From a virus, in IMG/VR virus record IMGVR_UViG_3300024319_000587, positions 1-64,000 of that record: a DNA stretch of 64,000 nt; one strand, 5' to 3'. The position numbers and the translations under genes are program-made. The notes under the pieces were generated by a model. That model did no database searches. It was not told the origin of the DNA and saw only the letters and a list, made by a program, of their open reading frames with translations. Positions 2,993-57,382 of the stretch are shown here, in pieces; positions within the stretch are counted from its first letter, which is position 1; every line of letters begins with the position of its first letter.

Positions 2993-3000
2993 GTATTTAT
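2993..3000 (-). promoter_or_regulatory. T4-type late promoter core (ATAAATAC)
   Basis: ATAAATAC on the minus strand overlaps the stop codon of the VWA gene and lies about 45 bases before the HNH gene. It matches the core of T4-like late promoters, which are read by the gp55 sigma factor with the sliding clamp. Confidence 0.55.
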
Positions 3001-4319
3001 GCGGCTTCTTTGTGGTAGTAAGCGTGTTCACCGAACGGTGGGACGATTGAGTCACTGCCATGAATTACAAATAGTGTATCACAGTAATTTGGATTACCCC
3101 AACTACCAAATGGGTATCCATCAGTAAACATTACAAACTTATCAGGATTGATATCGTTTTGTTCCATGAAGTTAAAGTTACATTCAAAATCAGTACCACC
3201 TCCACCAACGATTTCATAATCTTTGATTTCTTCTTGGTTCATCGGAGTAAACTCCTTGAATGAAAATTCATTAACCTCAGTATCGAAAGTCCAAACTCTA
3301 AGTCTAAAGTCCTGAAACTGTTGCATGATGCCTCCAACTTCACCCATGAAGTCAGCTAACATTTTATTATCAATAGAACCTGAAACATCAAGTCCGATAC
3401 CTAAGTCAACCATAGTATCATTGTCTTGACCTGGAAGATAAACACCCATAGACCTAGATTTCCTTGATTGACGCATCCATGTAAAATCTGATTTAAGTAA
3501 ACTTAAAATAGATGTATTAAGTAACTGTCGCCAATCCATTTTAGGTTCTGTCATAGACTTAACAAGTCTTTTGATATCACCAGGCATATTACCAGCACCA
3601 GCAGTTTGAGCCGCTTGAATAACAGCCTGTTTCATTTGGTCTTTAAGTTGTTTTGCTTCCTGTTTAGAAATTTTGATAGGCGCTTTACGTCCTGTAGGAT
3701 CGTTACCACCTGTGCCACCTGTTTCATCATTGCCATTACCCATGATATGTTGGTCAAGTGTTTTTTTGTCTTCACCTTGACCTGTTTGTTTCAGATGTTG
3801 ATAAATTTCCTCAGTGTATTTACCATGATACTTAGGATCGAATAGTGCAGATTTTGGCATAACACCAATTCTACTTTCAACACAACCTTGATTAACTTTA
3901 TAGTCAGCGGCTACATTCCAAAGTTGAGCATCACGATCCTCCTCTTCAAAATCGAATAGACGACCGCCCTCACCACAATGGTCATATACACAGTGAAGAA
4001 CCTCATGACCTACTACAAAGTCAATCTCTTCCGGTGTTAGAGTTCTGAAAAAATCACAGTTATAATAAAAATGTTTGCCATCAACTGCGGCTGTTGGGCA
4101 CCATTCTGCCTCAACTAGTTTTAATCGTGTAGCAAGTGTACCAAAGAACGGATGTTTGATAAGCATACGTACTCGACCGCCGACAATCATTTCTTTTACT
4201 TCTCGGTCAGTGTATTCGAATACTACGGGTTCTTCTGAATTTTCATCTACTTCAATGCCTGCATCTTTCAATACATCATCTACTATTTCATCAACTGTTT
4301 TCTGATTTGATACTTGCAT
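2997..4319 (-). CDS. VWA-like protein with metallopeptidase domain
   Basis: This 440-residue protein has two parts. The N-terminal ~200 residues form a putative metallopeptidase domain with HEVLH at about 105-109 and a later AADYKVNQ segment, as in proteins whose zinc ligands are HExxH plus a downstream acidic residue. After a Gly/Thr/Asn-rich linker, a C-terminal von Willebrand A-like domain has a D-V-S-G-S metal-site motif at about 311-315. Families of this type work with MoxR AAA+ ATPases, and one is encoded at 11270-12397 under the same promoter type. An ATG at 4343 lies at about +3 of the promoter; the ATG at 4319 preceded by AAAGG is preferred. The substrate is unknown. Confidence 0.85.
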   Translation of the reverse strand: MQVSNQKTVDEIVDDVLKDAGIEVDENSEEPVVFEYTDREVKEMIVGGRVRMLIKHPFFGTLATRLKLVEAEWCPTAAVDGKHFYYNCDFFRTLTPEEIDFVVGHEVLHCVYDHCGEGGRLFDFEEEDRDAQLWNVAADYKVNQGCVESRIGVMPKSALFDPKYHGKYTEEIYQHLKQTGQGEDKKTLDQHIMGNGNDETGGTGGNDPTGRKAPIKISKQEAKQLKDQMKQAVIQAAQTAGAGNMPGDIKRLVKSMTEPKMDWRQLLNTSILSLLKSDFTWMRQSRKSRSMGVYLPGQDNDTMVDLGIGLDVSGSIDNKMLADFMGEVGGIMQQFQDFRLRVWTFDTEVNEFSFKEFTPMNQEEIKDYEIVGGGGTDFECNFNFMEQNDINPDKFVMFTDGYPFGSWGNPNYCDTLFVIHGSDSIVPPFGEHAYYHKEAA

Positions 4320-4352
4320 GTGAACGTTACCTTTATCTTTCATTATGTATAC

Positions 4353-4905: not shown

Positions 4906-6054
4906 TTATTTTATCAAAATACTAGCATTTGTGCCACCAAAACCGAAAGAATTGCACAATACAGAGGTTATTTCTGCACGTTCTGACTTACTACGTATGT
5001 TTGGACTATAACCTTCTTCAAACGCTTCTACGTTCACCGTAGGCGGTATAATAGCGTGTTTTAGAGACATAATAGACATAGCAAGTTCTACAGAACCAGC
5101 GGCGCCCATACAGTGTCCTAACTGTGATTTGTTAGCAACTATGGGTACATCCTGTAATCCTAATCTATTGATAGCATCTAGTTCCGCATAATCTCCCATA
5201 GGTGTTGATGTTCCGTGTACATTAATAAGACTAGGTGTTGTGTCTTTTAAAGCATCTTTCATGCATTCTTGTACAACCTTGCCGTCAGGATGAGGAGCAA
5301 CAGTTTGATAGGCATCATTATTGATAGCATAACCATCAATCTCGCATATTGTATTGTCCGTCTTATGTTTACTCAATAAGAATAACGCACCGCCTTCACT
5401 TAATACTAATCCATCACGTTGAGTATCATAAGGTCTTGATGCTTTTTCTGGTGTATCATTATATTTGGTTGATAAGGCTCTGAGTTTTCCCATCTGTTTG
5501 AATGCATCTGGGTGTATAGTTTTATCTACAGAACCTGCTATTACATTATCTACCATACCCATTTCAATCATCATGGCCGCCCATATAACACTATAGATGC
5601 CTGTGCTACATGCAGTCAAGGTCATTGCACTAGCACCAGTTAAACCATATTTCATGTTTATATTATGTGCAATCATATCAGGACAATAGTGATAAATGTT
5701 ATCAGCATTTTCCTTATTTGACTGTAAAATTTCTAAGTACATAGAGAAGCCCGGAGATACAATAACACCTGTACGACTTTTATCTAATCCATCTAAGTTT
5801 ATTTGACTTGCTAATGCTAAAGCCCATTGATTTGATTCTGGAAGTCTATCACGTTCTGACTCAGTTATGATAGGATATTCTTTTGCATCGAAATGAAACT
5901 CTCCAGCTACTTTGCTTCGTGTCCATCTACTTTCATTTGGGTCAAACTTTGTAATTGGCCCATATGCTACTTTGTTATTGGTAACTCCTTTCCATGTTTC
6001 CTGTAAATCACCGAAGGGCGTGAAACATGAAAGGTCGTTAATATATACGGTCAT
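4906..6054 (-). CDS. Beta-ketoacyl synthase (FabF/KAS II-like)
   Basis: This 382-residue protein is a complete condensing enzyme of the FabF type, which extends an acyl-ACP with malonyl-ACP. The Cys-His-His triad can be read: nucleophile Cys149 in LTACSTG, His279 in NVHGTSTPMGD, and His313 in SQLGHCMGAAGS preceded by Lys308. The C-terminal glycine loop SFGFGGTNAS is also present. It is slightly shorter than bacterial FabF (~410). The gene is the last of six that overlap or abut from 11198 down to 4906, with two desaturases, a GNAT-like protein, a halogenase and an AMP ligase. A matching ACP gene lies at 57121-57360. Whether it serves normal fatty acids or a special product is unknown. Confidence 0.93.
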   Translation of the reverse strand: MTVYINDLSCFTPFGDLQETWKGVTNNKVAYGPITKFDPNESRWTRSKVAGEFHFDAKEYPIITESERDRLPESNQWALALASQINLDGLDKSRTGVIVSPGFSMYLEILQSNKENADNIYHYCPDMIAHNINMKYGLTGASAMTLTACSTGIYSVIWAAMMIEMGMVDNVIAGSVDKTIHPDAFKQMGKLRALSTKYNDTPEKASRPYDTQRDGLVLSEGGALFLLSKHKTDNTICEIDGYAINNDAYQTVAPHPDGKVVQECMKDALKDTTPSLINVHGTSTPMGDYAELDAINRLGLQDVPIVANKSQLGHCMGAAGSVELAMSIMSLKHAIIPPTVNVEAFEEGYSPNIRSKSERAEITSVLCNSFGFGGTNASILIK

Positions 6055-6826
6055 ATTTTAAATCCGTTGCTATAATGTATTTGATGATTAATCCTGTTGG
6101 ATCAAATTGATACCACTTCTCTTGTGTAGTGTAACTTAAACTGTTATTATGATGGTTATTATGCCAACCTTCACCGAATGTGATTAATGCTAAGAACCAG
6201 TTATTCTTACTATCATCACCTGTATCGTGTTCTGGCTTACCAAATATGTGTAGTAAATGTACAATACCAAATGTACCTACCCAAAATTGATACACGCCTG
6301 TAATACCTAATACATATCCCGGTAAGATTGGATCGATAAGAAATAGAATAATCATAGCAACTGTAATAATTTGAAAATAATAACGTTGCATAAATCTTAC
6401 TTGCGGATCCATATATAAGTCTTTAAAAATTCTACGTTCAGGAGGAAAGTCTTCATAGAAACCCATTAAGTTTTCCCACCATGATTTTTCTCTTGGACTA
6501 TGTATGTCCATACCTTCTACATCGGAATATTTGTGATGTAATCTATGTCCACCTATCGTTGCTAATGGTTTACCTGGAAAGCCTAATGCGCCCCACCAGA
6601 GCAATAGTACCTGACGTTTCCTTCCAGTCTGATAACTTCTATGTGCCCAATATCTGTGCCAACCTGCAAATCCACCTATCATAGTTGTTATACAACCCCA
6701 TGCAAACGAGTACCAAAAATACTCTGGTGCGGTTATAATACTAAAGAGTAATACCAGGTGCAAAACAATCCATAGTGTTCGCATCTTCCAACCATAAGTA
6801 TATTTTTCTAGTAGACTTTTAATCAT
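6038..6826 (-). CDS. Membrane fatty-acid desaturase
   Basis: This 262-residue protein is an integral-membrane di-iron desaturase of the delta-9/acyl-lipid type. The three histidine boxes are present: HRYWAH (57-62), HRLHH (94-98) and HNNHH (222-226). Four hydrophobic segments surround them (about residues 17-52, 75-85, 150-175 and 178-195). The family inserts a cis double bond in acyl-CoA or lipid-bound chains using oxygen and an electron donor. Its 3' end overlaps the ketosynthase gene by 17 bases, and its 5' end overlaps the GNAT-like gene. A second, distinct desaturase lies two genes upstream. The substrate and electron donor are unknown. Confidence 0.92.
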   Translation of the reverse strand: MIKSLLEKYTYGWKMRTLWIVLHLVLLFSIITAPEYFWYSFAWGCITTMIGGFAGWHRYWAHRSYQTGRKRQVLLLWWGALGFPGKPLATIGGHRLHHKYSDVEGMDIHSPREKSWWENLMGFYEDFPPERRIFKDLYMDPQVRFMQRYYFQIITVAMIILFLIDPILPGYVLGITGVYQFWVGTFGIVHLLHIFGKPEHDTGDDSKNNWFLALITFGEGWHNNHHNNSLSYTTQEKWYQFDPTGLIIKYIIATDLKYDRIY

Positions 6827-7433
6827 GTTTTTCTATCCTCTCTCCTGTTCTAAAGTTTCTCCAATTAAACTTCCAAACATCTTGCTTAATCCCATACAAT
6901 GGGAAATCTTTATGTAATAGAGTTAGCTTATCTTCGTGTGGCCATGCCACATAAGCAAATCTCCATATCTTGTGCATCGTGCCACTTCTATCTTCACTGT
7001 GGTCTTGTGATGCTGTTGTAACCACACAATCTGTGGCTCCTTGTTCATGTGCCCAATCTACCATAAAAGGAACTAATCTTGCAAATCCAAACTCATGATA
7101 CATTCTTCTAGTATTCTGTCTATCGTCTGCCATATTACGCCACTCAGGTAGTGTTGCCAATCTATAGTTTATCATATAACATGTATCATGTACATGTGGC
7201 AAGTAATGTGCACCTGCCATTGATACTATCTTATCCTCGTGATAAACAAACCACCAGTTCTCTTGTGAACCCCATTTGCCAAACTTCAATGCTTTGAGAC
7301 TAGCATTATTTAGTATACCTGCATCACCACACTTATCGCAGAATTCTTCTAAGTCTGCTTTTAATGTGCTATCGTATTCTACTACTTTAAATTCGTAACC
7401 CTCTGCACCAGTGAATGTTTCTAATACTTTCAT
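6819..7433 (-). CDS. GNAT-like acyltransferase, paralogue of the protein at 46749
   Basis: This 204-residue protein has the layout of a GNAT-type acyltransferase: an N-terminal LEEFCDKCG helix, a WWFVYHEDKIVSMAGAH beta pair, a central strand with NYRLATLPEWR, and a C-terminal part with FARLVPFMVDWAHEQG followed by DCVVTTASQ. The clear P-loop of typical GNATs is not obvious. It is recognisably related to the 179-residue protein at 46749-47288 (shared N-N-x-(S/T)-L-x-x-(L/M)-K-F and (K/R)-(I/M)-V-S-(M/V)-(A/S)-G-(A/I)-H patterns). Both copies stand next to an AMP-ligase gene, so a role in transferring an activated acyl group is plausible. It overlaps both neighbours. Confidence 0.6.
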   Translation of the reverse strand: MKVLETFTGAEGYEFKVVEYDSTLKADLEEFCDKCGDAGILNNASLKALKFGKWGSQENWWFVYHEDKIVSMAGAHYLPHVHDTCYMINYRLATLPEWRNMADDRQNTRRMYHEFGFARLVPFMVDWAHEQGATDCVVTTASQDHSEDRSGTMHKIWRFAYVAWPHEDKLTLLHKDFPLYGIKQDVWKFNWRNFRTGERIEKHD

Positions 7434-8155
7434 TTCTTAGCCAATAACATTGGAATATAATATTTACCAGCCCAATCAGTTAGGTCATCACGTGACATAT
7501 CAAGTCTTGCTGAATACTTGTGATGTATGTCGTGACATCCCTCTCCCATCATCCAGATGTTTGAAAAGCCACCTAATCTAGCAGGCCCACCCTCTTTGTG
7601 TGCTGAGAAGTTTAACCAAGTAAGTGCTACCCACATGTGAGTAAAGTTAAATGCTTGCCATACAACTAACCACGGGCTGATTATTAAATGTATTAATGTG
7701 AATAATGCATATAGTTTCCAATAGTTTCTATCAACATAAACTACATCACGTTTCTTTAATAGAAAACGTAAACTAATATAATCCTCTGGCGTCTTATAAT
7801 GTCCTAACCACATTTTCCAGAAGCCTAGGTCAGCTGGATTATGCGTGTCCTTATCTGTATCTGAATTCTTATGATGATTTAAATGAGAGTACACATATTG
7901 TATTGGACTTCCATTTGCACTCATAATAATACCATACAACATTGCATAGCGTCCTACGATATGAGGAACAAATTGGTCATGACATAACCATCGATGATAT
8001 GCAATCTGTGACAATGCATTTGTTACACAACCATATAAGGTAAATGTTAATGCAAGTTGCCAAGATCCACCTGTAATAAAGTATGCCGGTATACCAATTA
8101 AGGTAATTGCTAACATGAAAAATACTTTTACTGTTACTTTATTTTGATATGTCAT
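7430..8155 (-). CDS. Second membrane fatty-acid desaturase
   Basis: This is a 241-residue desaturase with the same three-box signature but a sequence clearly different from its neighbour: HRWLCH (54-59), HLNHH (91-95) and HDIHH near residue 205. Hydrophobic stretches near the N-terminus (residues 10-50) and around 65-80 and 150-175 are membrane segments. It overlaps the GNAT-like gene by four bases and shares a base with the halogenase gene, which is the translational coupling typical of one enzyme pathway. Two desaturases in one operon could set two double bonds or act on different chains. Confidence 0.92.
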   Translation of the reverse strand: MTYQNKVTVKVFFMLAITLIGIPAYFITGGSWQLALTFTLYGCVTNALSQIAYHRWLCHDQFVPHIVGRYAMLYGIIMSANGSPIQYVYSHLNHHKNSDTDKDTHNPADLGFWKMWLGHYKTPEDYISLRFLLKKRDVVYVDRNYWKLYALFTLIHLIISPWLVVWQAFNFTHMWVALTWLNFSAHKEGGPARLGGFSNIWMMGEGCHDIHHKYSARLDMSRDDLTDWAGKYYIPMLLAKK

Positions 8156-9831
8156 TACTTCTTTAGTGATTCCTCTAATACTTCTTCGTGGCTTTTGCCA
8201 TCAAACAAAAACTTTCTATGCCAATCGTATGCATGTGGAGCCAAATCGCCTTGTGCCTTACTTAATTTCTTGCAATACTCGAACATTATATCTGCTTTGT
8301 CTAACAGTTCTTTCTTAGTATTTAGTTCAACTGAATCATCAAAACACCCCATAGCAGTGGCTACATTCATCCACATATAATCAGGATATAAACTATTACC
8401 TATATGATTGTCAGGGTTTCTATATTCTTCCCAACATGCTTTGGCATGATTGTGCTTCTTGCCATACTCTTTTTGTTTCTTCCAGAAATTAGTATCTTCT
8501 CTATTTGATAATGTATAATGATATGCAATAAAGTTTGCAGTATGGTCTTCTAATTTATTCATACTCTTATTATATGCATGTACACTTCCAGGTGATATAG
8601 TTTTATCCTCGTCCCATGCACGTTTTACTAATCTATCTAATATCTGTATGCCCCATTGTGTTATGTATAATGCATTACCTTCCATTGGTTCAATAAATGA
8701 ATGACTCATTCCGATGCTTAGTACGTTTTTATTCCAAGGAGTAACCATACGTCCTGCCTTCCATGAAATATGTTTTGGTGGTTTGATAAACTCATAACCT
8801 TCCCAATATTTCATAAACTTTGCTTTTGCATCTTCGACAGATATTTCAGTCTTATCAAAAATATAACCTGAACCCATTCTGTTATATAATGAAATAACAA
8901 AGTTCCAGCCTTCGTCTTGTGCATACGTTTGTGTATACGGTTTGAATTCGTTATATATGTCCTTGTACTTTAGTGGACCAACAATAGCATCTTGTGTATG
9001 AATAAAATCGTAATCATGCCATTCATTATTCATCCCATCCACTAATACTTTGTGGAAGCCTGAACAATCGATAAACAAATCACCTTCATGTTCTATGCCA
9101 TCTTCCATTATTAGTTTTGTAATGTATCCATCCTCATCTTTAATGATATCTTTGACATCACCAATGGAATGATTAACCCCTTTTGGTATGGCAACTTTAT
9201 CTCTAATGATTTCTGGAAATCTATTTGCATCTAAATGATATGTATATGCTGACCAGTCACCGACTAAGCAGTTATCATCCATATCAAATGGTGCCTTGTT
9301 ACCTTTCATTAAATAATGTTGTTCATGCATATCCTCTGAAAGTTCATTAATGTTTTTTCTACCATCACGTACTAATTGCAACCAATAGTCGTTCCACTTA
9401 TCATTTACTCCGGCTTCGCCTTTAGAATTAGTAAAGTAATCATCTGTAGTAAGTTGTCCATAAAAACTTCTGGTTAGATGTTTCTCAGGTAGTGCGAATG
9501 AAAATGAATAGTATTGTACATCTTCCTTTGGTGCATTCCAATGGTCTGTTACATGGTGTCGTTTACCTGGTGTACTCCAACCAACAAATTTGTTACCTAA
9601 TTTATAAACTGAATTAGTATAACTCATCCAGTCTCTTTCCTCAAGACCCATTGTTGATAATAAATCATTTACTTGAGGCACTACACTTTCACCTACACCT
9701 ATTGTAGGAATGTTATCACTCTCAATTAAAGTAATGTCTAACCACGGGTGCTTATTTTTCATGTAACCTGCAGTGAACCAACCGTTTATTCCACCACCAA
9801 CGATTACAAGTTTTTTTAGTTTGGCTTTCAT
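8155..9831 (-). CDS. Tryptophan-halogenase family flavoprotein
   Basis: This 558-residue protein belongs to the FAD-dependent tryptophan-halogenase family. The N-terminal dinucleotide-binding motif is GGGINGW (12-18), followed by LIESDNIPTIGVGES. The lysine that guides HOCl in PrnA/RebH is present as Lys77 in VYKLGNKFVGW. FIDCSGFH (about 253-260) and IGMSHSFIEPMEG complete the fold. Two features are unusual: the family marker WxWxIP reads W-N-F-V-I-S at 309-314, and the Ser after the catalytic Glu is Gly. It may therefore halogenate a different substrate or act as a monooxygenase. It needs reduced FAD, and no flavin reductase is evident beside it. Confidence 0.88.
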   Translation of the reverse strand: MKAKLKKLVIVGGGINGWFTAGYMKNKHPWLDITLIESDNIPTIGVGESVVPQVNDLLSTMGLEERDWMSYTNSVYKLGNKFVGWSTPGKRHHVTDHWNAPKEDVQYYSFSFALPEKHLTRSFYGQLTTDDYFTNSKGEAGVNDKWNDYWLQLVRDGRKNINELSEDMHEQHYLMKGNKAPFDMDDNCLVGDWSAYTYHLDANRFPEIIRDKVAIPKGVNHSIGDVKDIIKDEDGYITKLIMEDGIEHEGDLFIDCSGFHKVLVDGMNNEWHDYDFIHTQDAIVGPLKYKDIYNEFKPYTQTYAQDEGWNFVISLYNRMGSGYIFDKTEISVEDAKAKFMKYWEGYEFIKPPKHISWKAGRMVTPWNKNVLSIGMSHSFIEPMEGNALYITQWGIQILDRLVKRAWDEDKTISPGSVHAYNKSMNKLEDHTANFIAYHYTLSNREDTNFWKKQKEYGKKHNHAKACWEEYRNPDNHIGNSLYPDYMWMNVATAMGCFDDSVELNTKKELLDKADIMFEYCKKLSKAQGDLAPHAYDWHRKFLFDGKSHEEVLEESLKK

Positions 9832-9833
9832 TT

Positions 9834-11198
9834 TTACTCCACAAATTGTTCTTTGACTACGTGTCTCTGAACTTTGCCCATAGGATTTCTAGGTAGTGGA
9901 TCTTTGGTAATAACAATTTCTTTAGGTAATTCATACTGAAATAATTTATCTTTAACAAAGTCCATCAACTCAAGACTATTTATCTCACTGTCCGCACTGA
10001 CTACTGCAACAATTTCTTTTTCCCCTAGTCCTCTATCACGATATGTAACACAAACTTCGTTAACCTCTTCATGAGGTAATAACATATTTTCAATTTTAAT
10101 AGGCGATACATTGAAACTGTTTACTTTTATTAAATCTGTTTTACGTGATTTATAAAATAAAAGATTATGCTGAGTTTCTAATACATCACCAGTACACCAA
10201 TAGCCATCATCATCTATAGGTGTTTCTTGATTCAGATATCCTTCTGTAACACAACTACCTTTAATCCAAGCAACACCATATCTATCTAATTTGAAATCAT
10301 AGTTATCAGTAATATGAATTTGTAAAGGATGTGGATCATCTGGAGTTGCCAAGTGTGTAAACATTGGTACATGTGTTTCAGTACAGCCATACAAGTTTCT
10401 TAATGCAGGTGCACCTTTATCAAATAGTTCTTGTAGCATTTCTTCCGGACAAACTGTACTACCAAAACCTAACTCACGCCAATGAGACAAGTCTGCGTCT
10501 TTCCAACCACGTGTCTTAGACAGGGCCAACATCATTGCAGGAACCATAATACCTATCGTAGGTTTCATTTCGTTACAAATCTTAATAAACTTTCTGGGAT
10601 TAAACATTTCACAAATTACTGTACACCCTTTCATTAAACCAGGAAGTGTATAAAGATACAGACCACCAATAGTCCAAGGAGGAAGTTGTGAGAGTATTAC
10701 ATCATCAGATGTTAAAGTTTGAATTAGAATGTTTTGTATTGAGCCTTGGACACATGCCATTCTAGTATGTGGGACTGCCTTAGGCTCTCCTGTAGTACCG
10801 CTAGTAAATATAACAGTATATAAATCATCTGCACCTTTGGCAAATACTAATCCTTTGTTATGAGGTTTTAGATTAGATGCATCATCCTCATTTAGAATAA
10901 TATGATTTGGTTTACTGGCATTCTCAATACGAGATACCATACCTTCAGTTAGATTTGGCATAGTGGGCATGAATGTGACTCCTAACATATCACAAGCTAA
11001 TACCATTCTTACATAATGATATTCTTTTTCACTTGAAAATAGTAGACGCTCACCAGGCCTGATGGCAGTAGACAACGTAGCACCTAGTTTTTCAACACTG
11101 GTGATTAGTTCGTTGTATGTATAACTCTTATCGTGGCAAATCAGGGCAGTCTTGCTACCGTGATTCTTTGCCTGTGCTTTTATTGTTTCCCAAATCAT
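9834..11198 (-). CDS. AMP-dependent acyl ligase / acyl-CoA synthetase
   Basis: This 454-residue protein is a full-length member of the adenylate-forming (ANL) superfamily. Core motif A3 is TSGTTGEPK (132-140), A5 is NLYGCTETHVP, A7 is YWCTGDV, and the C-terminal A10 lysine is Lys442 in NPMGKVQRH. It would activate a carboxylic acid as acyl-AMP and load it on CoA or an ACP. It is the first gene of the six-gene biosynthetic operon and has its own promoter at 11204-11232. The closest family guess is a fatty or aryl acid ligase; the substrate cannot be read from sequence. A truncated relative lies at 47263-47961. Confidence 0.92.
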   Translation of the reverse strand: MIWETIKAQAKNHGSKTALICHDKSYTYNELITSVEKLGATLSTAIRPGERLLFSSEKEYHYVRMVLACDMLGVTFMPTMPNLTEGMVSRIENASKPNHIILNEDDASNLKPHNKGLVFAKGADDLYTVIFTSGTTGEPKAVPHTRMACVQGSIQNILIQTLTSDDVILSQLPPWTIGGLYLYTLPGLMKGCTVICEMFNPRKFIKICNEMKPTIGIMVPAMMLALSKTRGWKDADLSHWRELGFGSTVCPEEMLQELFDKGAPALRNLYGCTETHVPMFTHLATPDDPHPLQIHITDNYDFKLDRYGVAWIKGSCVTEGYLNQETPIDDDGYWCTGDVLETQHNLLFYKSRKTDLIKVNSFNVSPIKIENMLLPHEEVNEVCVTYRDRGLGEKEIVAVVSADSEINSLELMDFVKDKLFQYELPKEIVITKDPLPRNPMGKVQRHVVKEQFVE

Positions 11199-11203
11199 AT
11201 CTA

Positions 11204-11232
11204 ATTATAACAAAAAAAGGGAGAGAAGTCAA
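11204..11232 (-). promoter_or_regulatory. Sigma70-type promoter of the biosynthetic operon
   Basis: TTGACT (11227-11232), 17 bases and TATAAT (11204-11209) on the minus strand. The -35 box lies in the loop of the upstream gene's terminator hairpin, and the -10 box comes just after its T-run. Transcription starts next to the AMP-ligase gene, so its ATG at 11198 may have almost no leader. Confidence 0.8.
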
Positions 11233-11244
11233 CACCTCTCTCCC
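11212..11244 (-). terminator. Rho-independent terminator after the MoxR gene
   Basis: An eight-base-pair stem GGGAGAGA/TCTCTCCC (11219-11226 with 11237-11244) with a ten-base loop is followed on the minus strand by seven T. It lies 26 bases after the MoxR stop. Confidence 0.85.
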
Positions 11245-11269
11245 TTAAAACGCAATAAAGTGTCTGCTC

Positions 11270-12397
11270 TTATGCGTTATGAGCCTCGATAATTAGCTTA
11301 CCGTATTTCTTAAAGAACTCCTCGATACAAGGAACCTTCCTAGGCTCAAGTGGAAGTTTGTAAACTTTTAGTGCAGTACGACCACCTAGAACAATCATTT
11401 CAGTTTCAAAGTTATCCATCATGAACCTGAAAAAGTTATCAGCCATTTTGTACAACTCATCCATTTTGCCTTTGTTTTTCTCTGCATGTTCTTTCAACTC
11501 ATAACATAGTGAAGCAGTTAGTGAGAACATAGCTGAGATTTCCTTAGCTTCCCTAGACACCGTTTTTACCTTACCATTTAAGATATCAGTTGGATTAGGA
11601 AGTTTACCAGAAATTGCTCGGTGAGCCATAAACTTAGTAGCAACACCATCACCAACAGTACCAGCAATTAAGTCATGCAGTTTACTATCATCGATATTTT
11701 CATCTTTCATTGGCATCAACTGTGATGCAAAAGTCCATGAACGAGGAGTTGCGAAAGCCCGTGATGCAGTTCGTGGGTCAAAGTTAAACAAGTCCATCTT
11801 ATTAGATGTTAAGTAACCAACAACATCAGAATGGATTTTGTTTTCAAGAGCCCAAGTCTGCCAATCTTCAAAGTCAACACCCATTTCTAAGTGAACGAAA
11901 CGGTTAGCAAGTGGGCTTGGCATACGATAAGCAACACCTCTATCACTCTCACGGTTACCAGCGGCAACAATAAGAACATTATCAGGTAGAGTGTAATTAC
12001 CTAGACGCCTGTTAAGAATAAGTTGATAAGCCGCCGCTTGTACTGATTGCGGTGCTTGGTTCATTTCATCTAAAAACAATACAATGTTTTCAAACTGGTC
12101 AGCAAGTTCCTGACTAGGCAAATCAGACGGTGTCGCCCAATCCATAGTATTTGTTTTCTCATTATAGTATGGGATACCTCGTAAATCAGTAGGTTCCATA
12201 AGAGCAAGTCGTAAGTCAATCATATAACCTGAACGCTCTTGTGTGATTGAATCAACAATCTCAGATTTACCTACTCCCGGAGGACCCCAAATAAAGACGG
12301 GTCGTTGACGATTAAAAGCATAATTAATTTCAGCTTTAATATCACTCGGACGTACAATTCGTACATCCATATCATTCATTGAAACTTGTGCAGACAT
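11270..12397 (-). CDS. MoxR-type AAA+ ATPase
   Basis: This 375-residue AAA+ ATPase is of the MoxR type. Walker A is GPPGVGKS (about 38-45), Walker B is IVLFLDE (about 105-111), sensor 1 is VAAGNRESD, and the MPSPLANRF arginine segment follows. MoxR ATPases act as chaperones with VWA-domain partners; the likely partner is the VWA/metallopeptidase at 2997-4319. Both genes are driven by promoters with the same CGAATC spacer motif. An earlier ATG (12424) coincides with the predicted transcription start, and the ATG at 12397 has AAAGGA nine bases before it, so the later start is chosen. A terminator follows. Its process in infection is unknown. Confidence 0.9.
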   Translation of the reverse strand: MSAQVSMNDMDVRIVRPSDIKAEINYAFNRQRPVFIWGPPGVGKSEIVDSITQERSGYMIDLRLALMEPTDLRGIPYYNEKTNTMDWATPSDLPSQELADQFENIVLFLDEMNQAPQSVQAAAYQLILNRRLGNYTLPDNVLIVAAGNRESDRGVAYRMPSPLANRFVHLEMGVDFEDWQTWALENKIHSDVVGYLTSNKMDLFNFDPRTASRAFATPRSWTFASQLMPMKDENIDDSKLHDLIAGTVGDGVATKFMAHRAISGKLPNPTDILNGKVKTVSREAKEISAMFSLTASLCYELKEHAEKNKGKMDELYKMADNFFRFMMDNFETEMIVLGGRTALKVYKLPLEPRKVPCIEEFFKKYGKLIIEAHNA

Positions 12398-12431
12398 ATT
12401 TTCATTTCCTTTGTTTTGTATCATTAACTAT

Positions 12432-15300: not shown

Positions 15301-16272
15301 TTATTTTTCGTTGATTTGACGTTCAAATTCTCTTAAACGTTTGAATACACTCATTAACTCAATAAGTGTTGGCCATGCTTTAAATAGATATTGAAGTGAG
15401 CCTTCTACTCTACCAAATGCACGAATAATCTGTTGCATTACACCAAGTGTTACAACGCCTGCTACAATAGCCGGTGCTAAGAACACATAAGCACTTAGTA
15501 CGTTTGCTTGTAAGTATGTAATACGTCCTACATTAAAATACAAATAACGCAAGTAAGATTTAAAGTGAATACTACGAACGCCATCAAACAATTCGTTAAT
15601 AGTCTTTGGTCTCACAGTTTCATCATCTTCTGCAATAACTAATATCTTTCGATATGCGGCTTCTTTCTTTTGTAAGTCATATTCAACTCCTACTAATCGT
15701 AGTAACCAACCTAGTCCAATTAAGAATAGTGTACCACCTACTGACCAAACAATAGCACCTGTAATCAATCCATATTGCCAATCTCCAAAGAAGAAGATAG
15801 GAATACCTACTGATAAACCAAATAGAATAGGAACGAACTGAACTAGAACCATAATCGATTCAATAAAACTTGTACCTAGTCCTTCCATAATACGACTAAA
15901 CTTAATAGTATCTTCTTGTACCCTTTGTGCGGCACCTTCAATAGTTCTTGCTTTATCATATACTGAATGATACCATTCAACCATTGCCGTACGCCATCTA
16001 AACAAATAGTGTGCTGTAAAGTAACTTACTAGCACTGCAATAGCAACATATATCATTGCTAGATAGATAAACGTTCCTAAACTGGCCCAATATTCACCTA
16101 TAGTGATTGCATTAGGTGTTGCTAAAGCCGTTTGAATCATATCATAAAACTGACCAAACCATTCGTTAATCTTAACATCAATCTCAACTTGTATCCAGAG
16201 TGATGATAAGATTAATGCTGACCCTAACCAGGCCCATAAGGACCATTTCTTTTCTGTAAAAAATCTAAACAT
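15301..16272 (-). CDS. SbmA/BacA-like inner-membrane peptide transporter
   Basis: This 323-residue protein resembles the SbmA/BacA family, proton-driven importers of peptide antibiotics and modified peptides. It has hydrophobic segments at about 12-30, 65-90, 135-165, 170-200 and 262-290. Family-like stretches include the soluble WYHSVYDKARTIEGAAQRVQEDT, the VGVEYDLQKKEAAYRKILV region, and the C-terminal RAFGRVEGSLQYLF before the WPTLIELMSVFKRL helix. E. coli SbmA has about 400 residues, so this copy lacks some sequence but appears intact. It overlaps the phosphomannomutase gene by eight bases. Phage use could be nutrient or antibiotic uptake or an effect on superinfection; none can be shown. 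Confidence 0.82.
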   Translation of the reverse strand: MFRFFTEKKWSLWAWLGSALILSSLWIQVEIDVKINEWFGQFYDMIQTALATPNAITIGEYWASLGTFIYLAMIYVAIAVLVSYFTAHYLFRWRTAMVEWYHSVYDKARTIEGAAQRVQEDTIKFSRIMEGLGTSFIESIMVLVQFVPILFGLSVGIPIFFFGDWQYGLITGAIVWSVGGTLFLIGLGWLLRLVGVEYDLQKKEAAYRKILVIAEDDETVRPKTINELFDGVRSIHFKSYLRYLYFNVGRITYLQANVLSAYVFLAPAIVAGVVTLGVMQQIIRAFGRVEGSLQYLFKAWPTLIELMSVFKRLREFERQINEK

Positions 16273-33372: not shown

Positions 33373-34695
33373 TTAATTGGAATTTACTAGTTCATTGAAG
33401 TGTGGGAAGCACTCTGAATATGAGATTTTGCGTCTATCTTCTAATATTTTAAACTGTTTTTGTGCTATTAGCTTAGTTTCTACTGGCACTTCGCTTTCTA
33501 CTAGTGATTTCATTGTCTTCATTAATCTAATATATCTTTGTTTTTTATAGAAATTACCAGACATATTCTGAAAATATTCTATTTGTTCTTCTATTGCATC
33601 TGCATGATGTGGCTCTAATGAATCTACTGCTAAATGCACTGGATTATCTACCCAATTCTGATGCATTAATATTGTCTTATCGTATTCATACTTATTTATT
33701 TTATCATTAAGGTACACTAAAAAATCTTTGAAGTAGGGAAGACTTAAACTATTGTGGGCGCAACCAAAACCAATAATTAGATTATCAATATCCTTTGATT
33801 TCTCAAAAAATAAATCTAAGTTTTCATCCCATTTATTAAAATCTAATCCCCACCTAATCAATTCACTCTGCTTATTTAATGCTTCACCTGATAGTTGCAT
33901 TTCGTAACGTATATTTGGAGTTCTATGTACTAGTTCAATAAATTTATCGAATTTCTTTTTAGGGAAGTTTAAATTTGTTGTAACAGTGATTACTACTATT
34001 TGTCCTTCAGTGTGAGTGTCATTGATGTTTACCATAAATTCTTCAATAAACTTAAACATATGGTCAGTAAAAAACGGCTCTCCGCCTAGTAAACTAAAGT
34101 TAACATGTCCTTGTCCTACTAATTTCTTATCCCAATAATCATTTAAAATATTCAGTGTCTTATCAAACATTGCATCATCTGTATCTGGAAAACGCTGACC
34201 TACTTCTTTTTGCCAACGAGTACTAGAACCAGCCCAACAATATACACACGCCATGTTGCATTTATTTGTTAATTCTATTTCAATAAACTTGAAGTTGTCA
34301 CGTTCCATCATATCTCTATGAAATTGTTTAGCCATGTTTGGATGATTGCCAGCTTTTTGTAAACGCATTCTCCACGGATAATCGTAATTACTGTTATATG
34401 ATGTTCTAACACTCTCTCCGCCTGCATCTTCTGTTCTCCAACAACCTGAACAATCTGTACTGCGGGTGCCTCCACTTAATTCATACTTTCGTTGTTGTAG
34501 TATAGGATGATTAAATAAAAAATCTTCGGTAAGCGTATCTATGTCAAATGTTAGTTCTTTCATTTGCTCAGGCGTATGTTGTGTTTTACAACACCACTTT
34601 ACTGTTCTTTGAGGTAAGGATATTATAATGTCGTTCCAGTTTTTGAAACACATTGTATTTTTTAAATTATGAAGATTTGGATTTAGTTCATTCAT
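33373..34695 (-). CDS. Radical-SAM protein, twitch-domain type
   Basis: This 440-residue radical-SAM protein has the cluster motif CNMACVYC (Cys146, 150, 153), a GGEP-type LLGGEPFF, and an N-terminal Cys-rich region (WCC around 34-36 and DCSGCWRTE around 81-89) that could bind another cluster. I recall this group, often labelled twitch-domain radical SAM, from marine T4-like phages with no known substrate. It overlaps the 1247-residue gene by four bases but lacks the shared MKL/MRL start. The phage's own Fe-S assembly and MetK genes would support such enzymes. Confidence 0.85.
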   Translation of the reverse strand: MNELNPNLHNLKNTMCFKNWNDIIISLPQRTVKWCCKTQHTPEQMKELTFDIDTLTEDFLFNHPILQQRKYELSGGTRSTDCSGCWRTEDAGGESVRTSYNSNYDYPWRMRLQKAGNHPNMAKQFHRDMMERDNFKFIEIELTNKCNMACVYCWAGSSTRWQKEVGQRFPDTDDAMFDKTLNILNDYWDKKLVGQGHVNFSLLGGEPFFTDHMFKFIEEFMVNINDTHTEGQIVVITVTTNLNFPKKKFDKFIELVHRTPNIRYEMQLSGEALNKQSELIRWGLDFNKWDENLDLFFEKSKDIDNLIIGFGCAHNSLSLPYFKDFLVYLNDKINKYEYDKTILMHQNWVDNPVHLAVDSLEPHHADAIEEQIEYFQNMSGNFYKKQRYIRLMKTMKSLVESEVPVETKLIAQKQFKILEDRRKISYSECFPHFNELVNSN

Positions 34696-37600
34696 TTTTT
34701 CTTTGTACGCAGTAGCTTTTTAGGTTTCCCATCCTTGTCTACGTCATTACCAAACTTTTTAGCTTGTTTAGTAATTTCATTGGGTCCTACATCAACTGTG
34801 GTATTTATACCTGGTACGACACGCCCTACGCCTGCCGCCTCTTTAACATCTTTTCTACTGAATACTTTTTTAATTGCTTGTACTGTATTGGCTGTAGTCG
34901 TTGTGTGATGTTTAATTGCGATACCACCTGCTGATTGCCATCCTTTGACATTCTTACCAAAATCATCAATTAACAAGTTCGGTGTACCGTCTTGCTTAGT
35001 TGCATATTTTGATTTGTTATGGTCAATGATAACTTGCTCTGGTTTAAAGAAGTTTAAATGTTTTCTCACCCACTCTCTTTTACCAGGATCCACGTTTGGA
35101 TCGTTTGCAAGAGGGGAACTTAATATTTTATATTTGCCTTTTGTGGCTTTAATTGTGTTGAGCAGTTCTTTATGACCTGCTAGTGTTGGCAAATCTTCCC
35201 AGAAGTTTGGAGTATTAACAATCTTCTTAAGTGCTTTGCCTATTTGCTCTTTTGGTATGTCTCTGTATGATTTGACATTCATAATTCTAGCCCACTCATT
35301 AAAGAAATCAACCAATACGCCATCCATATCCACATATACATCAGGAGTATTATCTTCTAATAGTCTTTCGAAATCTTCATCTAATGATTTTTTATTCATC
35401 CAATTATCATACTTGCTTTCAGCCCAATTTGCAACCTTTTTCGTATCTGTTTTTACCCATGGTCCTCGATGCATGAATTTTGCTGAGATAGATACTTGTT
35501 TACCGAACAGTTCTTTTGGATGAAGTATGGATATATGATAAAGTCTCTTGTCATTATCAACACCTGTGACTTCAACTTCAATTTGTTCATACTTCTTACC
35601 AGCAAACTTGACATTATGTCCTGTCATAAACTTGCCTACTGCTTCTAATACTATGGTTTCTTTAACTGGAACTTTATTTAACAAGTCTTCCTTGCTTAGT
35701 TTGTAGTTAGATTTCATCCACTCATCTTTTAAATCAGCAATCATCTTACCAAGATTAGGACCAGCTACATAACCTCTTGCTAGTAAGTCTTTACCATTGA
35801 TTGGGAAGTCTGGTTGTTCAAATCCGTGTACTGCATCATATACATCATTCTTGCCATGCATGTTTGCCCATGCAAGTAAATGATCCTGTGAGGCACCATT
35901 GATAATCATATCTTGTGCTTGTTTTGGATTGATGTTTTCACCTTTGTGCTTGATTAAGAAGTCAAACATTTCTCTATCGTAATTGCTCATCTTCCAATCT
36001 CTTGCAATACCACTACTGTCCAGCATTCTTGCAAGGGCAATAATAGGTCCTGTAGGCTCACCTAGTTTAGCTGGATTGATACCTTCAAGTCCAATCTTAC
36101 TTGATACGCCTGTCTTGTTCATCCATTCAAGTGCTTCTTTGGCACTCGAACCCATTAACAATTTGCTCATTTCTTGCCAAATTCTTTCAACAGATAAACC
36201 TGTCATGCCATCTGCATTATCTTTGATTGCATTTAATGTGACATCGTCCCACTTTGGACTATCTAACTTAGATTGAAATCTAAAGTATCTTAAGATACGC
36301 AAATAATCTTCTTTAATTCTTTCTTCTGGATCCCCTACGAACCTACTTACTTTATCTTGCAAGTCGTCCATACCACCATTGTAATCATGTACTGTACCGT
36401 CAATGTCCATTGACATTGCGTTGTATGTTAAGTCTCTACGTTTGGCATCTTCTTCCCATGAACGTACAAATTCTACATCAGCATGTCTACCATCAGTATT
36501 TGTATCTGCACGTAGAGTTGTTATTTCAAAATCTTCACCATCGATAACCGCAGTTATTGTACCATGCTCTATGCCTGTAGGAATGTGTCTGATACCTTCT
36601 TTGTCAAGCATAGCAATCATTTCATCCGGTGTAGCATCTGTGGCAAAGTCAATATCTTTTGGCTCTTTACCTAATGCAATATCTCTTACAGCGCCACCTA
36701 CTATTCTGACTTCATATTGATTCTTTTTAAATACTTTATCTAGCTTACGAATAGCCTGGGTAATGATAGGTTTGACGTTCAATGCTTCTTCTCTTAATGC
36801 TGATAACATAGTGTTCAGTGCTTCATTAACTCTTTCGTTTGTTTGTGGATAACGGATCATTGTTTCTCTAAAACGAAAGTCTTTGTTGCGACCTTTGTTT
36901 GGTACAAAACCAAAACGCTTGTAAAACTTAATCAGTCTATTCTTATTCCCACCAAATGCATCATCTGGTGTTAGTGCAATAATGGCGCCTTCTCTATCCA
37001 TTCTATCAACGATATTTTGCATTTCTTTGGTCCCTTGACCAGCATTGCGTTCATCGCCTGATACTTCAATCTTAGATAGTACATAACCTTTTTTAGCATC
37101 GCCATGTAACGATACTTCAACTTCTTCGCCTACGTAGGCTTTGACTGTTTTAATACCTTGTGCCTTGTATGCTTGAAGTCTATGGTTGCCATCTAATAGA
37201 TATCCATCGTTGCCTATTACCATTGGGGGGAATTGAGATGTGTCTGCTTTTTTATATTTTTCAACATTTGCCTGACTCATTCCATCGCTCTTTACTGCTG
37301 TTGGTATCTTATCAACTTGTACGTCTTTTAGTTTAAACCCTTTATGAGATAGAACAAACTTTGACCAGTCTGAGTTTGGATCCATTGCGCCCGTATGTGT
37401 GCCTTGCATTTCTTTTGATAGTTTTGTCAACATTTGTTGTGATGATATTACTGAATTAGCAAGTTTAACTTCTTCTTCGACTTGAGAATTTGCTATTGCT
37501 TTAAGTTCATCAGGTAACATATTGATAGCTTCTTTTCGTAGACTAGCTTTTCCATTTTTCATAACTCTTAACAGGTCAGCCTTTTCTGCATGGTAAACTT

Positions 37601-38435
37601 TAGCAAACTTAGGATCGTTCTTGCCGATATCTCTGCCATTGCTTATCAAATCGGCATATTTAACTGTTTGTGCTTCTGCACTAACACCTGCAAGTTTATC
37701 TCTGTCTATGCCTTTGCGTACTTTTCTATTACCGTCTTCTGGTTTACTTACATCAGTAAGTTCAACAACTAGTTTTGCAATCTGAGGACCAAATTCTCTT
37801 GTTACATCTGCTGGTGTAACACTTGTATCTTCTACTGTATCATGCAACAAAGCGGCACACTGTTGATTCACAGAACCACCTGCCTGTTTAACGATATTTC
37901 TCACTTCATCTAAGTGTACATAGTATGGTTCACCAGTGTACTTTCTCTTGTGGTCTTTGTGAGCCTCTTGAGCAAATTGTTCTGCCTTTGCTATGATATC
38001 CATTGATTCGTCCTCTGTGTAGATATCTTTGAAGTATACACTAGGAAACTTTAATGTCAAGGATAAAAGTTCATGAACATCAACATTTGCACGTAAAATA
38101 TTAATATCTCTACCTGTATTCAAAGCGGCCAACCACCGATGATGTCCATCTATAATCCAACTGTCACTACTTGCTAGTAGAGGTTTTGGGTTCTGGCCGT
38201 CATATTTTTTGTTCTTTGTAAGTTGTCTTTCAACACCTTGGTCTGAAAATTCTTTTTGTATTGGTTTTAAATCTTTTGCACTTACGACTTGTGAAGTTAG
38301 AGTTACGCCGTTCTTTTTAAGATAAGATTTATATTCGTCATAGTCTGTAGATTTCACTTGAGGCATTTTGTCCCTTGTGATACCCATAGTATCTTCTGGT
38401 TTAGGCTTCTCTATTTTGAATTCAGCTAGGCGCAT
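34692..38435 (-). CDS. Giant multidomain late protein: ParB-like, HD, ParB-like, GNAT, tRNA-nucleotidyltransferase, HAD
   Basis: This 1247-residue protein begins MRLAEFKIE, the short N-terminus shared by its neighbours. Domains by motif: a ParB/sulfiredoxin-like module with DGHHR (96-100); an HD hydrolase domain like RelA/SpoT or MESH1 (about 143-310; LLHDTVEDT at 196-204); a second ParB-like module with DGNHR (415-419); a GNAT-like part (about 437-530); a poly(A) polymerase/CCA-type nucleotidyltransferase with GGAVRDIALGKEPKDIDFAT (580-599) and its RNA-binding helices; and a HAD 5'-nucleotidase-like domain with DMDGVLVDF (1036-1044). A fusion of this breadth was probably built by accretion. 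It may be packaged and split after injection. Confidence 0.85.
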   Translation of the reverse strand: MRLAEFKIEKPKPEDTMGITRDKMPQVKSTDYDEYKSYLKKNGVTLTSQVVSAKDLKPIQKEFSDQGVERQLTKNKKYDGQNPKPLLASSDSWIIDGHHRWLAALNTGRDINILRANVDVHELLSLTLKFPSVYFKDIYTEDESMDIIAKAEQFAQEAHKDHKRKYTGEPYYVHLDEVRNIVKQAGGSVNQQCAALLHDTVEDTSVTPADVTREFGPQIAKLVVELTDVSKPEDGNRKVRKGIDRDKLAGVSAEAQTVKYADLISNGRDIGKNDPKFAKVYHAEKADLLRVMKNGKASLRKEAINMLPDELKAIANSQVEEEVKLANSVISSQQMLTKLSKEMQGTHTGAMDPNSDWSKFVLSHKGFKLKDVQVDKIPTAVKSDGMSQANVEKYKKADTSQFPPMVIGNDGYLLDGNHRLQAYKAQGIKTVKAYVGEEVEVSLHGDAKKGYVLSKIEVSGDERNAGQGTKEMQNIVDRMDREGAIIALTPDDAFGGNKNRLIKFYKRFGFVPNKGRNKDFRFRETMIRYPQTNERVNEALNTMLSALREEALNVKPIITQAIRKLDKVFKKNQYEVRIVGGAVRDIALGKEPKDIDFATDATPDEMIAMLDKEGIRHIPTGIEHGTITAVIDGEDFEITTLRADTNTDGRHADVEFVRSWEEDAKRRDLTYNAMSMDIDGTVHDYNGGMDDLQDKVSRFVGDPEERIKEDYLRILRYFRFQSKLDSPKWDDVTLNAIKDNADGMTGLSVERIWQEMSKLLMGSSAKEALEWMNKTGVSSKIGLEGINPAKLGEPTGPIIALARMLDSSGIARDWKMSNYDREMFDFLIKHKGENINPKQAQDMIINGASQDHLLAWANMHGKNDVYDAVHGFEQPDFPINGKDLLARGYVAGPNLGKMIADLKDEWMKSNYKLSKEDLLNKVPVKETIVLEAVGKFMTGHNVKFAGKKYEQIEVEVTGVDNDKRLYHISILHPKELFGKQVSISAKFMHRGPWVKTDTKKVANWAESKYDNWMNKKSLDEDFERLLEDNTPDVYVDMDGVLVDFFNEWARIMNVKSYRDIPKEQIGKALKKIVNTPNFWEDLPTLAGHKELLNTIKATKGKYKILSSPLANDPNVDPGKREWVRKHLNFFKPEQVIIDHNKSKYATKQDGTPNLLIDDFGKNVKGWQSAGGIAIKHHTTTTANTVQAIKKVFSRKDVKEAAGVGRVVPGINTTVDVGPNEITKQAKKFGNDVDKDGKPKKLLRTKKK

Positions 38436-46748: not shown

Positions 46749-47288
46749 ATGATTATTACAGAAGAACTAAAAGTAATAACACCTGAACTGAAAGATTTTC
46801 TAAAAGTATGCGATGAAAAAGATTTCATGAACAACAATACATTAGAAAATATGAAGTTTGAATGGTGCTTAGAGCGAGGTGGCATGTGGTATGCTACCTA
46901 TGACAATGGACGTATGGTTAGTGTCAGTGGAATACATCCATGGGCAAACGGTTGGCGTGCTTTATTCAGAGGTGTGCAGACTGAAAGCAAAAAGATAGGT
47001 TTGAACAGACACCATATGCAAAGCTATTGCTTTCATAGTCAGTTGCCATATCAGATTGAATATGCGTCAAGTAAAGAAACAGATTTAGATAATATGTTTA
47101 TCTATATTACTACTAACACAGAGAATGATGCAAGTGGTAAGATGAATAGAATTGATAAAACATTCTTTCATTTAGAAAAGTTAGAGTTAGTTAAGAACTT
47201 AGGAACAAGTGAAGTTTTTGGTGTAAATCAAAACACGTGGATATTAAACATAAACAAATACAATGAAATTAGAAGACAGTATAACTAA
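46749..47288 (+). CDS. GNAT-like acyltransferase, paralogue of the protein at 6819
   Basis: This 179-residue protein shares its layout with the 204-residue protein at 6819-7433: (N)NNTLENMKFEW against NNASLKALKFGKW, and RMVSVSGIHPW against KIVSMAGAHYL. It is shorter but complete. A GNAT-like fold fits the beta-turn-helix order, but the acyl-CoA loop is not clear. It starts the plus-strand island and overlaps the mini AMP-ligase gene by 26 bases. The same pairing with an AMP ligase occurs in the minus-strand operon, so the two genes probably work together. No clear ribosome-binding site is seen. Confidence 0.6.
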   Translation: MIITEELKVITPELKDFLKVCDEKDFMNNNTLENMKFEWCLERGGMWYATYDNGRMVSVSGIHPWANGWRALFRGVQTESKKIGLNRHHMQSYCFHSQLPYQIEYASSKETDLDNMFIYITTNTENDASGKMNRIDKTFFHLEKLELVKNLGTSEVFGVNQNTWILNINKYNEIRRQYN

Positions 47289-51773: not shown

Positions 51774-51788
51774 TGTAAAGGACACGAA

Positions 51789-52469: not shown

Positions 52470-52882
52470 ACTACACCAAATTAGACTTACCAAAAATACC
52501 AAAAGATTTGATACTTCCACTAGAAGAAGTATTGAAACTTGAAAATATATTTGGAGGCAAAAGTAAGAATTATACAATACATGAATGCCAACCAGAACTT
52601 AAGGAATATTTGCAAGAGTTATTCCCTGATTGTACTAAATTCAGATATCAGACATTAACAAAGGATATACCAATACACACAGATAGAGGTAGAGAATTTG
52701 CAATTAATTATATTATACAAACTGGTGGACAAAATGCAGAGACATGTTGGTATGAAGAATTTGTACAAGAACCTATAGATTCTGTTATAATACCCAAAGA
52801 AGAATGGCATAAATTAGCAGTAAACGTGCATCATACAGTAAGAAATATCACAGATTGGCGATTTGCTATCACTGTGTGCTAA
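52466..52882 (+). CDS. Small Fe(II)/2-oxoglutarate oxygenase-like protein
   Basis: This 138-residue protein has IPIHTDRGREFAINYIIQTGG with H-x-D, WHKLAVNVHHTVRNI with the distal His and WRFAITV with an Arg, an order seen in small cupin-type oxygenases. It is the fourth oxygenase-like gene in the window. It overlaps 51789-52469 and probably acts with it. No other evidence for a substrate. Confidence 0.6.
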   Translation: MNYTKLDLPKIPKDLILPLEEVLKLENIFGGKSKNYTIHECQPELKEYLQELFPDCTKFRYQTLTKDIPIHTDRGREFAINYIIQTGGQNAETCWYEEFVQEPIDSVIIPKEEWHKLAVNVHHTVRNITDWRFAITVC

Positions 52883-57360: not shown

Positions 57361-57382
57361 TATTCCCTGTAAGTCCTCTTAG

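Follow-up and report, generated by a model that had tools for sequence, protein, structure and literature searches.

A jumbo-phage operon that, with a distant acyl carrier protein gene, may direct synthesis of modified acyl amides

The first 64 kb (the window) of the 75,967-bp IMG/VR viral record IMGVR_UViG_3300024319_000587 carries six overlapping or abutting genes on the minus strand (positions 4906-11198). By family, these encode an acyl-AMP ligase, a tryptophan-halogenase-family enzyme (HAL), a membrane desaturase (DES1), a GNAT-fold acyltransferase (GNAT), a second desaturase (DES2), and a FabF-like ketosynthase (KS). On balance, this operon and an acyl carrier protein (ACP) gene elsewhere in the window (57121-57360) appear to form an ACP-dependent pathway of a jumbo phage that would build a modified acyl chain and release it as an amide. 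Among the observations behind this reading are a core of four genes kept in every complete copy of the operon and an ACP gene that accompanied the operon in nine contigs and was absent from two relatives lacking the core.

Genes and active sites of the operon

The six open reading frames match exactly the coordinates given in an earlier sequence-only reading of this DNA, and the families named there were supported by Pfam, homology, or fold. From ligase to KS, consecutive genes are spaced by +2, −1, −4, −8, and −17 nt. Pairwise dN/dS values between orthologues were about 0.06 to 0.33 across all operon genes; each protein is thus in use and under purifying selection, and since the same order was also found in dozens of contigs, the gene set is not a chance arrangement. 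Neither the six operon proteins nor the ACP reached an NCBIfam equivalog cut-off, so the assignments are made at the level of family rather than orthologue.

The first gene (9834-11198, minus strand) encodes a 454-amino-acid acyl-AMP ligase of the ANL superfamily (PF00501, E value, 6.4e−47, with AMP-binding_C). Both domains are present, as are motifs A3 (TSGTTGEPK), A5 (YGCTE), A7 (TGD), and A8 and the A10 lysine (PRNPMGK). The last gene (4906-6054, minus strand) encodes the 382-amino-acid KS (PF00109/PF02801, E value, about 1e−26), which carries the motifs ACSTG, VHGTST, and KSQLGH; its Cys-His-His triad and the lysine of KSxxGH were conserved in all 15 orthologues checked. KS matched FabF structures in the PDB with E values down to 4e−67 and scored 256.8 bits against the curated FabF equivalog TIGR03150, below the cut-off of 493.75, and is therefore a divergent member of the FabF family.

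Both desaturases are three-histidine-box proteins. DES2 (6038-6826, minus strand; 262 amino acids) was recognized as an acyl desaturase by PF00487 (FA_desaturase; E value, 3.4e−11) and has the boxes HRYWAH, HRLHH, and HNNHH. DES1 (7430-8155, minus strand; 241 amino acids) had no Pfam match on its own; it is homologous to DES2 (E value, about 1e−9), and a joint profile of the two matched acyl-CoA desaturase structures (1.8e−17). The DES1 boxes HRWLCH, HLNHH, and HDIHH are kept in its orthologues, the last reading HHIHH at locus L065.

HAL (8155-9831, minus strand; 558 amino acids; PF04820, E value, 4.3e−88) is a flavin adenine dinucleotide (FAD) enzyme that aligns with PrnA. Its catalytic residues K77 (PrnA K79) and E384 (PrnA E346) are invariant, cyanophage homologues included, and the FAD motif (GxGxxG) reads GGGxxG in every orthologue with a complete N terminus.

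The product of the fourth gene (6819-7433, minus strand; 204 amino acids) likewise had no Pfam match when searched alone. A first AlphaFold model built from 5 sequences was poor (pLDDT, 62); the final model, from 19 orthologues and paralogues, reached a pLDDT of 89.6. Foldseek returned 220 PDB matches to it at an E value of ≤0.001 (best, 9e−7), and the 50 listed were GNAT-type acetyltransferases, so the model supports a GNAT fold. The signature of the acetyl-CoA pyrophosphate loop, Q/RxxGxG/A, was absent from all 19 sequences, which would fit an acyl-ACP donor without proving one.

A four-gene core at a variable site

The operon lies between genes for a MoxR AAA+ ATPase (11270-12424, minus strand; phrog_1297, 8.7e−101) and a VWA/DUF2201 metallopeptidase-like co-chaperone (2997-4343, minus strand; PF13203, 3.4e−36; PF09967, 2.8e−15). 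The MoxR gene adjoins the site in all relatives. Paired MoxR and vWA genes have been described from group 2.2 jumbo phages, with a proposed role in virion assembly (PMC7824862). In what follows, counts of loci include near-duplicate contigs, the contigs are fragments, and the pattern-based scans are insensitive to distant relatives.

Both borders and a complete operon interval were found in 24 contigs, and the ligase, HAL, GNAT, and KS genes were present in all 24. Two desaturase genes were carried by 8 of these contigs, one by 4 (L073 to L075 and L078, the last with its desaturase after KS), and none by the remaining 12. HAL and KS were always found together. The four genes are therefore an invariant core, and the desaturases are optional.

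At twelve related loci the MoxR/VWA site is empty (70 to 193 bp). At another five (L069, L076, L079, L086, and L066), a ligase ending at the hinge between its N- and C-terminal domains (about 341 to 361 amino acids) is followed by a second type of GNAT, the loss of the C-terminal domain accompanying loss of KS and HAL. Because truncated ligases co-occur with a GNAT, the two recur as a pair, as would suit activation of an acid and subsequent acylation of an amine. At L072, a hinge-truncated ligase is followed by an unrelated 255-amino-acid protein resembling a 2-oxoglutarate (2OG) oxygenase. L052 and L097, considered as further short-ligase alleles, were rejected, as their genes stop at contig ends. 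In a tree of MoxR, operon forms clustered, and empty and truncated forms fell in more than one place. The recurring ligase-GNAT pair, the optional desaturases, and a cassette hotspot with empty alleles had all gone unremarked in the sequence-only reading.

The core genes differ in how they diverge. Between L054 and L058, HAL is 97% identical despite lower identities for the ligase (79%), KS (77%), and GNAT (58%), and by these comparisons HAL has moved between operons. GNAT sequences diverge fast between operons, with identities of 39 to 59%.

Several further genes were seen at the site or in the relatives. L076 and L079 additionally hold a 227-amino-acid ligase core fragment, and L069 holds a putative class IV aminotransferase, assigned by reading. 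L065 carries a 332-amino-acid protein in the MoxR/VWA slot, similar-looking to the 333- to 340-amino-acid proteins of L157 (G011:C1:64000-70000) and L158 (G002:C1:243000-247500). These latter two represent another carrier-protein locus in relatives, with a radical-SAM-like protein, an ACP-like protein, and one or two of the 333- to 340-amino-acid proteins.

A ligase and a GNAT also stand together elsewhere in the window. At 46749-47961 (plus strand) there is a GNAT paralogue, about 20 to 23% identical to the operon GNAT, and a 232-amino-acid, fragment-like AMP ligase. The pairing of the two families in reduced cassettes and again here supports activation followed by amine acylation as the core act of the system. 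These genes belong to a second, plus-strand cluster (46749-52882) amid an otherwise minus-strand region, with sulfotransferase-like genes, a QueC/PP-loop protein, and proteins resembling 2OG oxygenases. The relatives G002 to G004 contain a similar ligase fragment.

Co-occurrence of an ACP gene with the operon

The ACP gene reported by the sequence-only reading at 57121-57360 (minus strand) was confirmed (PF00550, E value, 4.5e−10). It encodes 79 amino acids with a DSID phosphopantetheine site, conserved in 9 loci. The gene is part of an iron-sulfur (Fe-S) assembly block (57121-59277, minus strand) that is conserved in relatives and also encodes an HscB-like J protein (assigned by reading; no Pfam match), two IscA-type proteins, a nitroreductase-like protein, and MotA/ExbB-like proteins. 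Its position inside an HscB/IscA block first suggested a role in Fe-S assembly.

In all nine operon contigs that cover the block (G000, G002, G003, G004, G005, G012, G014, G021, and G039), ACP stands beside IscA. Contig G016, which has an empty MoxR/VWA site, keeps the order HscB-IscA-IscA-ExbB with ACP absent, and G034, with a truncated ligase and a GNAT and neither KS nor HAL, keeps HscB-nitroreductase-IscA, again with ACP absent. Since G016 and G034 lie in different clades of the MoxR tree, these are two independent, correlated absences. They offer modest but pointed evidence linking ACP to the operon. The nitroreductase gene (57703-58458) was considered as a flavin reductase partner and rejected; it is absent from the block in the operon phages G012, G005, and G014 and present in the operon-free G034.

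Proposed pathway and alternative explanations

In the pathway that we consider the best account of these genes, the ligase would adenylate a carboxylic acid from the host and load it onto the phage holo-ACP, a step for which a host phosphopantetheinyl transferase (PPTase) would be needed. KS would condense the ACP-bound acid with host malonyl-ACP to give a β-ketoacyl-ACP longer by two carbons. HAL would then tailor the chain oxidatively by halogenation or hydroxylation, most plausibly at the enolizable α-carbon beside the new ketone; KS makes a β-ketoacyl thioester with an acidic α-carbon, HAL always accompanies KS, and CmlS, a flavin-dependent halogenase (FDH) of chloramphenicol biosynthesis, is proposed to act on the enolate of a malonyl thioester (PMC8407142). 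The desaturases would add unsaturation in the five- and six-gene forms of the operon, and GNAT would move the chain from ACP onto an amine, yielding an N-acyl amide. Such a product would probably serve to alter the envelope of the infected cell or be released as a small amphiphile acting on competitors or superinfecting phages; for a different halogenase-containing cluster of a jumbo phage, superinfection exclusion or an antagonistic metabolite has been proposed (PMC7824862). What we infer from the gene set is the substrate, the product, the sequence of the steps, the amine that accepts the chain, any use of halide, and the purpose.

A number of findings weigh against this pathway. The ACP gene is about 46 kb from the operon and lies within the Fe-S block, and two independent absences of ACP are few, both coming from fragments (G034 and G016). 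The best PDB sequence matches of the ligase are CoA ligases rather than ACP ligases, so loading of ACP is something the ligase may do, and in five four-gene relatives motif A3 reads TSGTxGxPS instead of TSGTTGxPK, with lysine replaced by serine. The operon contains no ketoreductase, dehydratase, PPTase, or thioesterase gene. Both signature motifs of FDHs have decayed in HAL: WxWxI(P) is absent, reading WNFVIS here and WxFxI[SPT] in all 15 sequences, and Fx.Px.Sx.G is degenerate, reading FIEPMEGNA here and [FM][IV]EPME[GA]N[ASVI] across the same number, with serine and glycine lost in 15/15.

These points qualify two claims of the sequence-only reading and temper a third. Its statement that all active-site boxes appear intact holds for KS and the desaturases and does not hold for the two halogenase signatures of HAL. 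Its suggestion of a perhaps halogenated product may or may not hold, given the degenerate motifs. The WxWxI(P) motif is held to prevent monooxygenation (PMC12871659), and halogenases that do without it exist (PMC12871659, PMC8407142). With both signatures lost, HAL is possibly, though not established as, a halogenase, and it may equally be taken seriously as a candidate flavin monooxygenase; weak matches of HAL to the flavoenzymes LodB, GoxB, and QhpG point in the same direction. As to a complete pathway, co-occurrence supports the link to ACP, but the part of the window's genes scanned against family libraries yielded no recognizable gene for a ketoreductase, dehydratase, or PPTase. For these activities, as for malonyl-ACP, the phage would have to rely on its host.

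A broader version of this proposal is less likely than not. It holds that the jumbo-phage lineage has its own ACP-dependent natural-product line in which HAL and GNAT, being swapped or fast diverging, would lead different phages to make differing oxidized or halogenated N-acyl amides during infection, directed against competitors or used to remodel the surface of the infected cell.

Remodelling of host lipids is an unlikely, though the strongest, competing explanation. The ligase, KS, and desaturases would give longer or more unsaturated membrane lipids, while GNAT and the flavoenzyme would act separately or decorate amine lipids. The FabF-like KS and the two acyl desaturases are of kinds commonplace in membrane-lipid metabolism, an ACP is present, and single desaturase-like genes are known in phages (Pelagibacter phage Mosig). 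However, it is the desaturases that are dispensable, whereas HAL and GNAT are invariant; altering the output of the host fatty acid synthase needs no ligase; and HAL alleles have been exchanged between operons (L054/L058), unlike housekeeping lipid enzymes.

Somewhat less probable still is modification of a macromolecule, in which GNAT would place the chain made by ligase and KS on a protein lysine, a glycan amine, or a DNA base, and HAL would hydroxylate a residue in the way of the LodB, GoxB, and QhpG maturases. Jumbo-phage GNATs have been proposed to modify RNA polymerase and Mom-family GNATs to modify DNA (PMC7824862), and both the weak matches of HAL and its lack of the motif thought to prevent monooxygenation would agree with such a role. 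Against it, the presence of KS and ACP points to a chain exceeding a simple acetyl mark in length, and the fast divergence of GNAT is unexpected for an enzyme with one fixed host protein target.

It is improbable that ACP serves the phage Fe-S block while the operon draws on host ACP or CoA. ACP adjoins IscA in every relative that has ACP, and the closest homologues of the ligase are CoA ligases; yet G016 and G034 retain HscB and IscA and lack ACP exactly when KS, HAL, and a full ligase are missing, which argues against ACP as a mere Fe-S partner. An assembly chimera or bacterial contamination, which the presence of bacterial-type metabolic genes in a metagenome contig might suggest, is effectively refuted by the identical gene order between the same MoxR/VWA borders in many viral contigs of varying divergence, by the 342,607-bp contig G002, in which the operon is accompanied by a terminase domain and a capsid gene of Gp23 type (276.8 bits), and by the failure to find close bacterial homologues (25 to 30% identity at best for HAL, none for GNAT).

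The phage-borne operon of the sequence-only reading, and the recurrence of its gene order that the reading proposed to look for, were thus both borne out. The description as T4-like is apt in a broad sense, the Gp23-type capsid gene being found in the sister contig G002 rather than in the window's own 76-kb fragment and the DNA polymerase being of the T4 family, but this is a jumbo phage. By MoxR, the closest phage isolates are those of the PA5oct group (53%).

Comparison with known systems

The nearest known logic to the proposed ACP-dependent pathway is assembly of the mycobactin lipid tail (mbt-2), in which MbtM is the ligase, MbtL the ACP, MbtN a dehydrogenase, and MbtK a GNAT. The phage has genes for all four parts, so activation of an acid, tethering to ACP, unsaturation, and N-acyl transfer by a GNAT would have counterparts there, and the similarity would be one of working, with no common family membership claimed. 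The fold matches to the initial, weaker GNAT model included Rv1347c (PDB 1yk3). The phage differs in adding KS and a tryptophan-halogenase-family enzyme and in having membrane desaturases where mycobactin assembly has an acyl dehydrogenase; siderophore genes were not seen. The JamABC alkyne module of jamaicamide likewise combines an acyl-ACP ligase, a desaturase/acetylenase, and an ACP; these parts are similar, but the phage ligase resembles CoA ligases and the phage desaturases are optional. CmlS and HAL have weak sequence similarity only, and CmlS has covalent FAD; we know of no KS partner for CmlS.

Among phages, Iyer et al. 2021 (PMC7824862) predicted a 10-gene metabolite cluster, including an amino-acid halogenase, in the jumbo cyanophage S-SSM6a, where a tryptophan-halogenase-family gene thus also lies in a biosynthetic-looking cluster. 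That cluster differs in encoding carbamoyltransferases, a HemK-like methylase, and 2OG oxygenases, with no ligase, KS, ACP, or desaturase reported (PMC7824862). One S-SSM6a tryptophan-halogenase gene product is 26% identical to HAL. VirX1, a cyanophage flavin-dependent halogenase (PDB 6qgm), belongs to the Pfam family of HAL and was matched by the HAL profile. Overall, HAL homologues in phage isolates were 25 to 32% identical, and those aligned, unlike HAL, keep the proline of WxWxIP with tryptophan or tyrosine as the second aromatic residue. No ligase or KS was found in the three such loci inspected.

The operon GNAT was found in no phage isolate, and its profile had no match in GTDB genomes, although the pattern step of that search would miss distant relatives. 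In bacterial genomes, the HAL profile found only homologues of 25 to 30% identity. The gene set as a whole occurred in no phage isolate or bacterium searched. KS and ligase matches in phage isolates were mostly set aside because, in our judgement, the records resemble host DNA under phage names. The literature yielded no description of a phage ligase/KS/ACP/GNAT operon, in agreement with the view of the sequence-only reading that no phage pathway with this set had been described.

The metabolic genes that phages carry mostly encode individual, host-like enzymes. In this case, a virus family retains what would be an entire carrier-protein pathway, from activation and condensation through oxidation and unsaturation to release, in a slot with empty, reduced, and extended alleles. 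The carrier-protein pathway is the new element, phage-borne biosynthetic clusters and viral halogenases being already known. Prophage-encoded clusters were reported by Dragos et al. 2021, as cited in PMC10452541; they lie mostly within prophages, in contrast to the cassette slot described here, which is conserved across a large phage family. If a compound is made, viruses would be direct sources of specialized metabolites, and the defined gene set, with its natural deletion variants, would provide a means of testing why phages carry tryptophan-halogenase-family genes.

Promoter and terminator of the operon

The single promoter that the sequence-only reading had placed ahead of the operon was recovered at 11232-11204, matching the consensus at 11 of 12 positions and having an extended −10. 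It is fused to the intrinsic terminator of the MoxR gene, the two together occupying 11204-11246 (minus strand). A 13-bp hairpin (11246-11217; −21.4 kcal/mol; z, −5.1) contains the −35 (TTGACT), which spans its loop and 3′ arm; the spacer is formed by the T-tract, and the −10 (TATAAT) lies at 11209-11204. The ligase ATG starts 5 nt past the −10 and has no Shine-Dalgarno sequence, from which a leaderless operon mRNA is predicted.

Most operon-bearing relatives keep this fused layout, with stems that differ yet pair (for example, AGAGGGA/TCCCTCT in L060), and in most the ATG is 5 to 9 nt past the −10. The exceptions are L077 and L081, with a separate upstream hairpin, and L087, with a longer leader. 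No other strong promoter in the list for the window is fused to a terminator. A terminator was sought past KS, and none was convincing. In L063 (11247-11879), an unrelated 210-amino-acid gene occupies the MoxR/VWA slot behind a similar fused element, here with a Shine-Dalgarno-like sequence; the control element may therefore go with the slot and not with the operon.

Five other minus-strand promoters in the window (at 42190, 41665, 41418, 12459, and 55296) share CGAATC between the −35 and −10 (TTGAC...CGAATC...TATAnT). This shared sequence may mark them as a temporal class under a regulator of their own.

Other genes in the window

A full-length SbmA/BacA transporter is encoded at 15301-16272 (minus strand; PF05992, 8.6e−140; NCBIfam PRK12369, above cut-off) and had no match among PHROG families. 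The SbmA/BacA family transports peptide antibiotics and very-long-chain fatty acids. A 1,247-amino-acid multidomain protein (34692-38435, minus strand) combines nucleotidyltransferase, HD phosphohydrolase, deoxyribonucleotidase, and other pieces. Finally, a small phage protein with an RyR domain (59321-59788, minus strand; PF02026, 3.8e−11) is conserved in the relatives.

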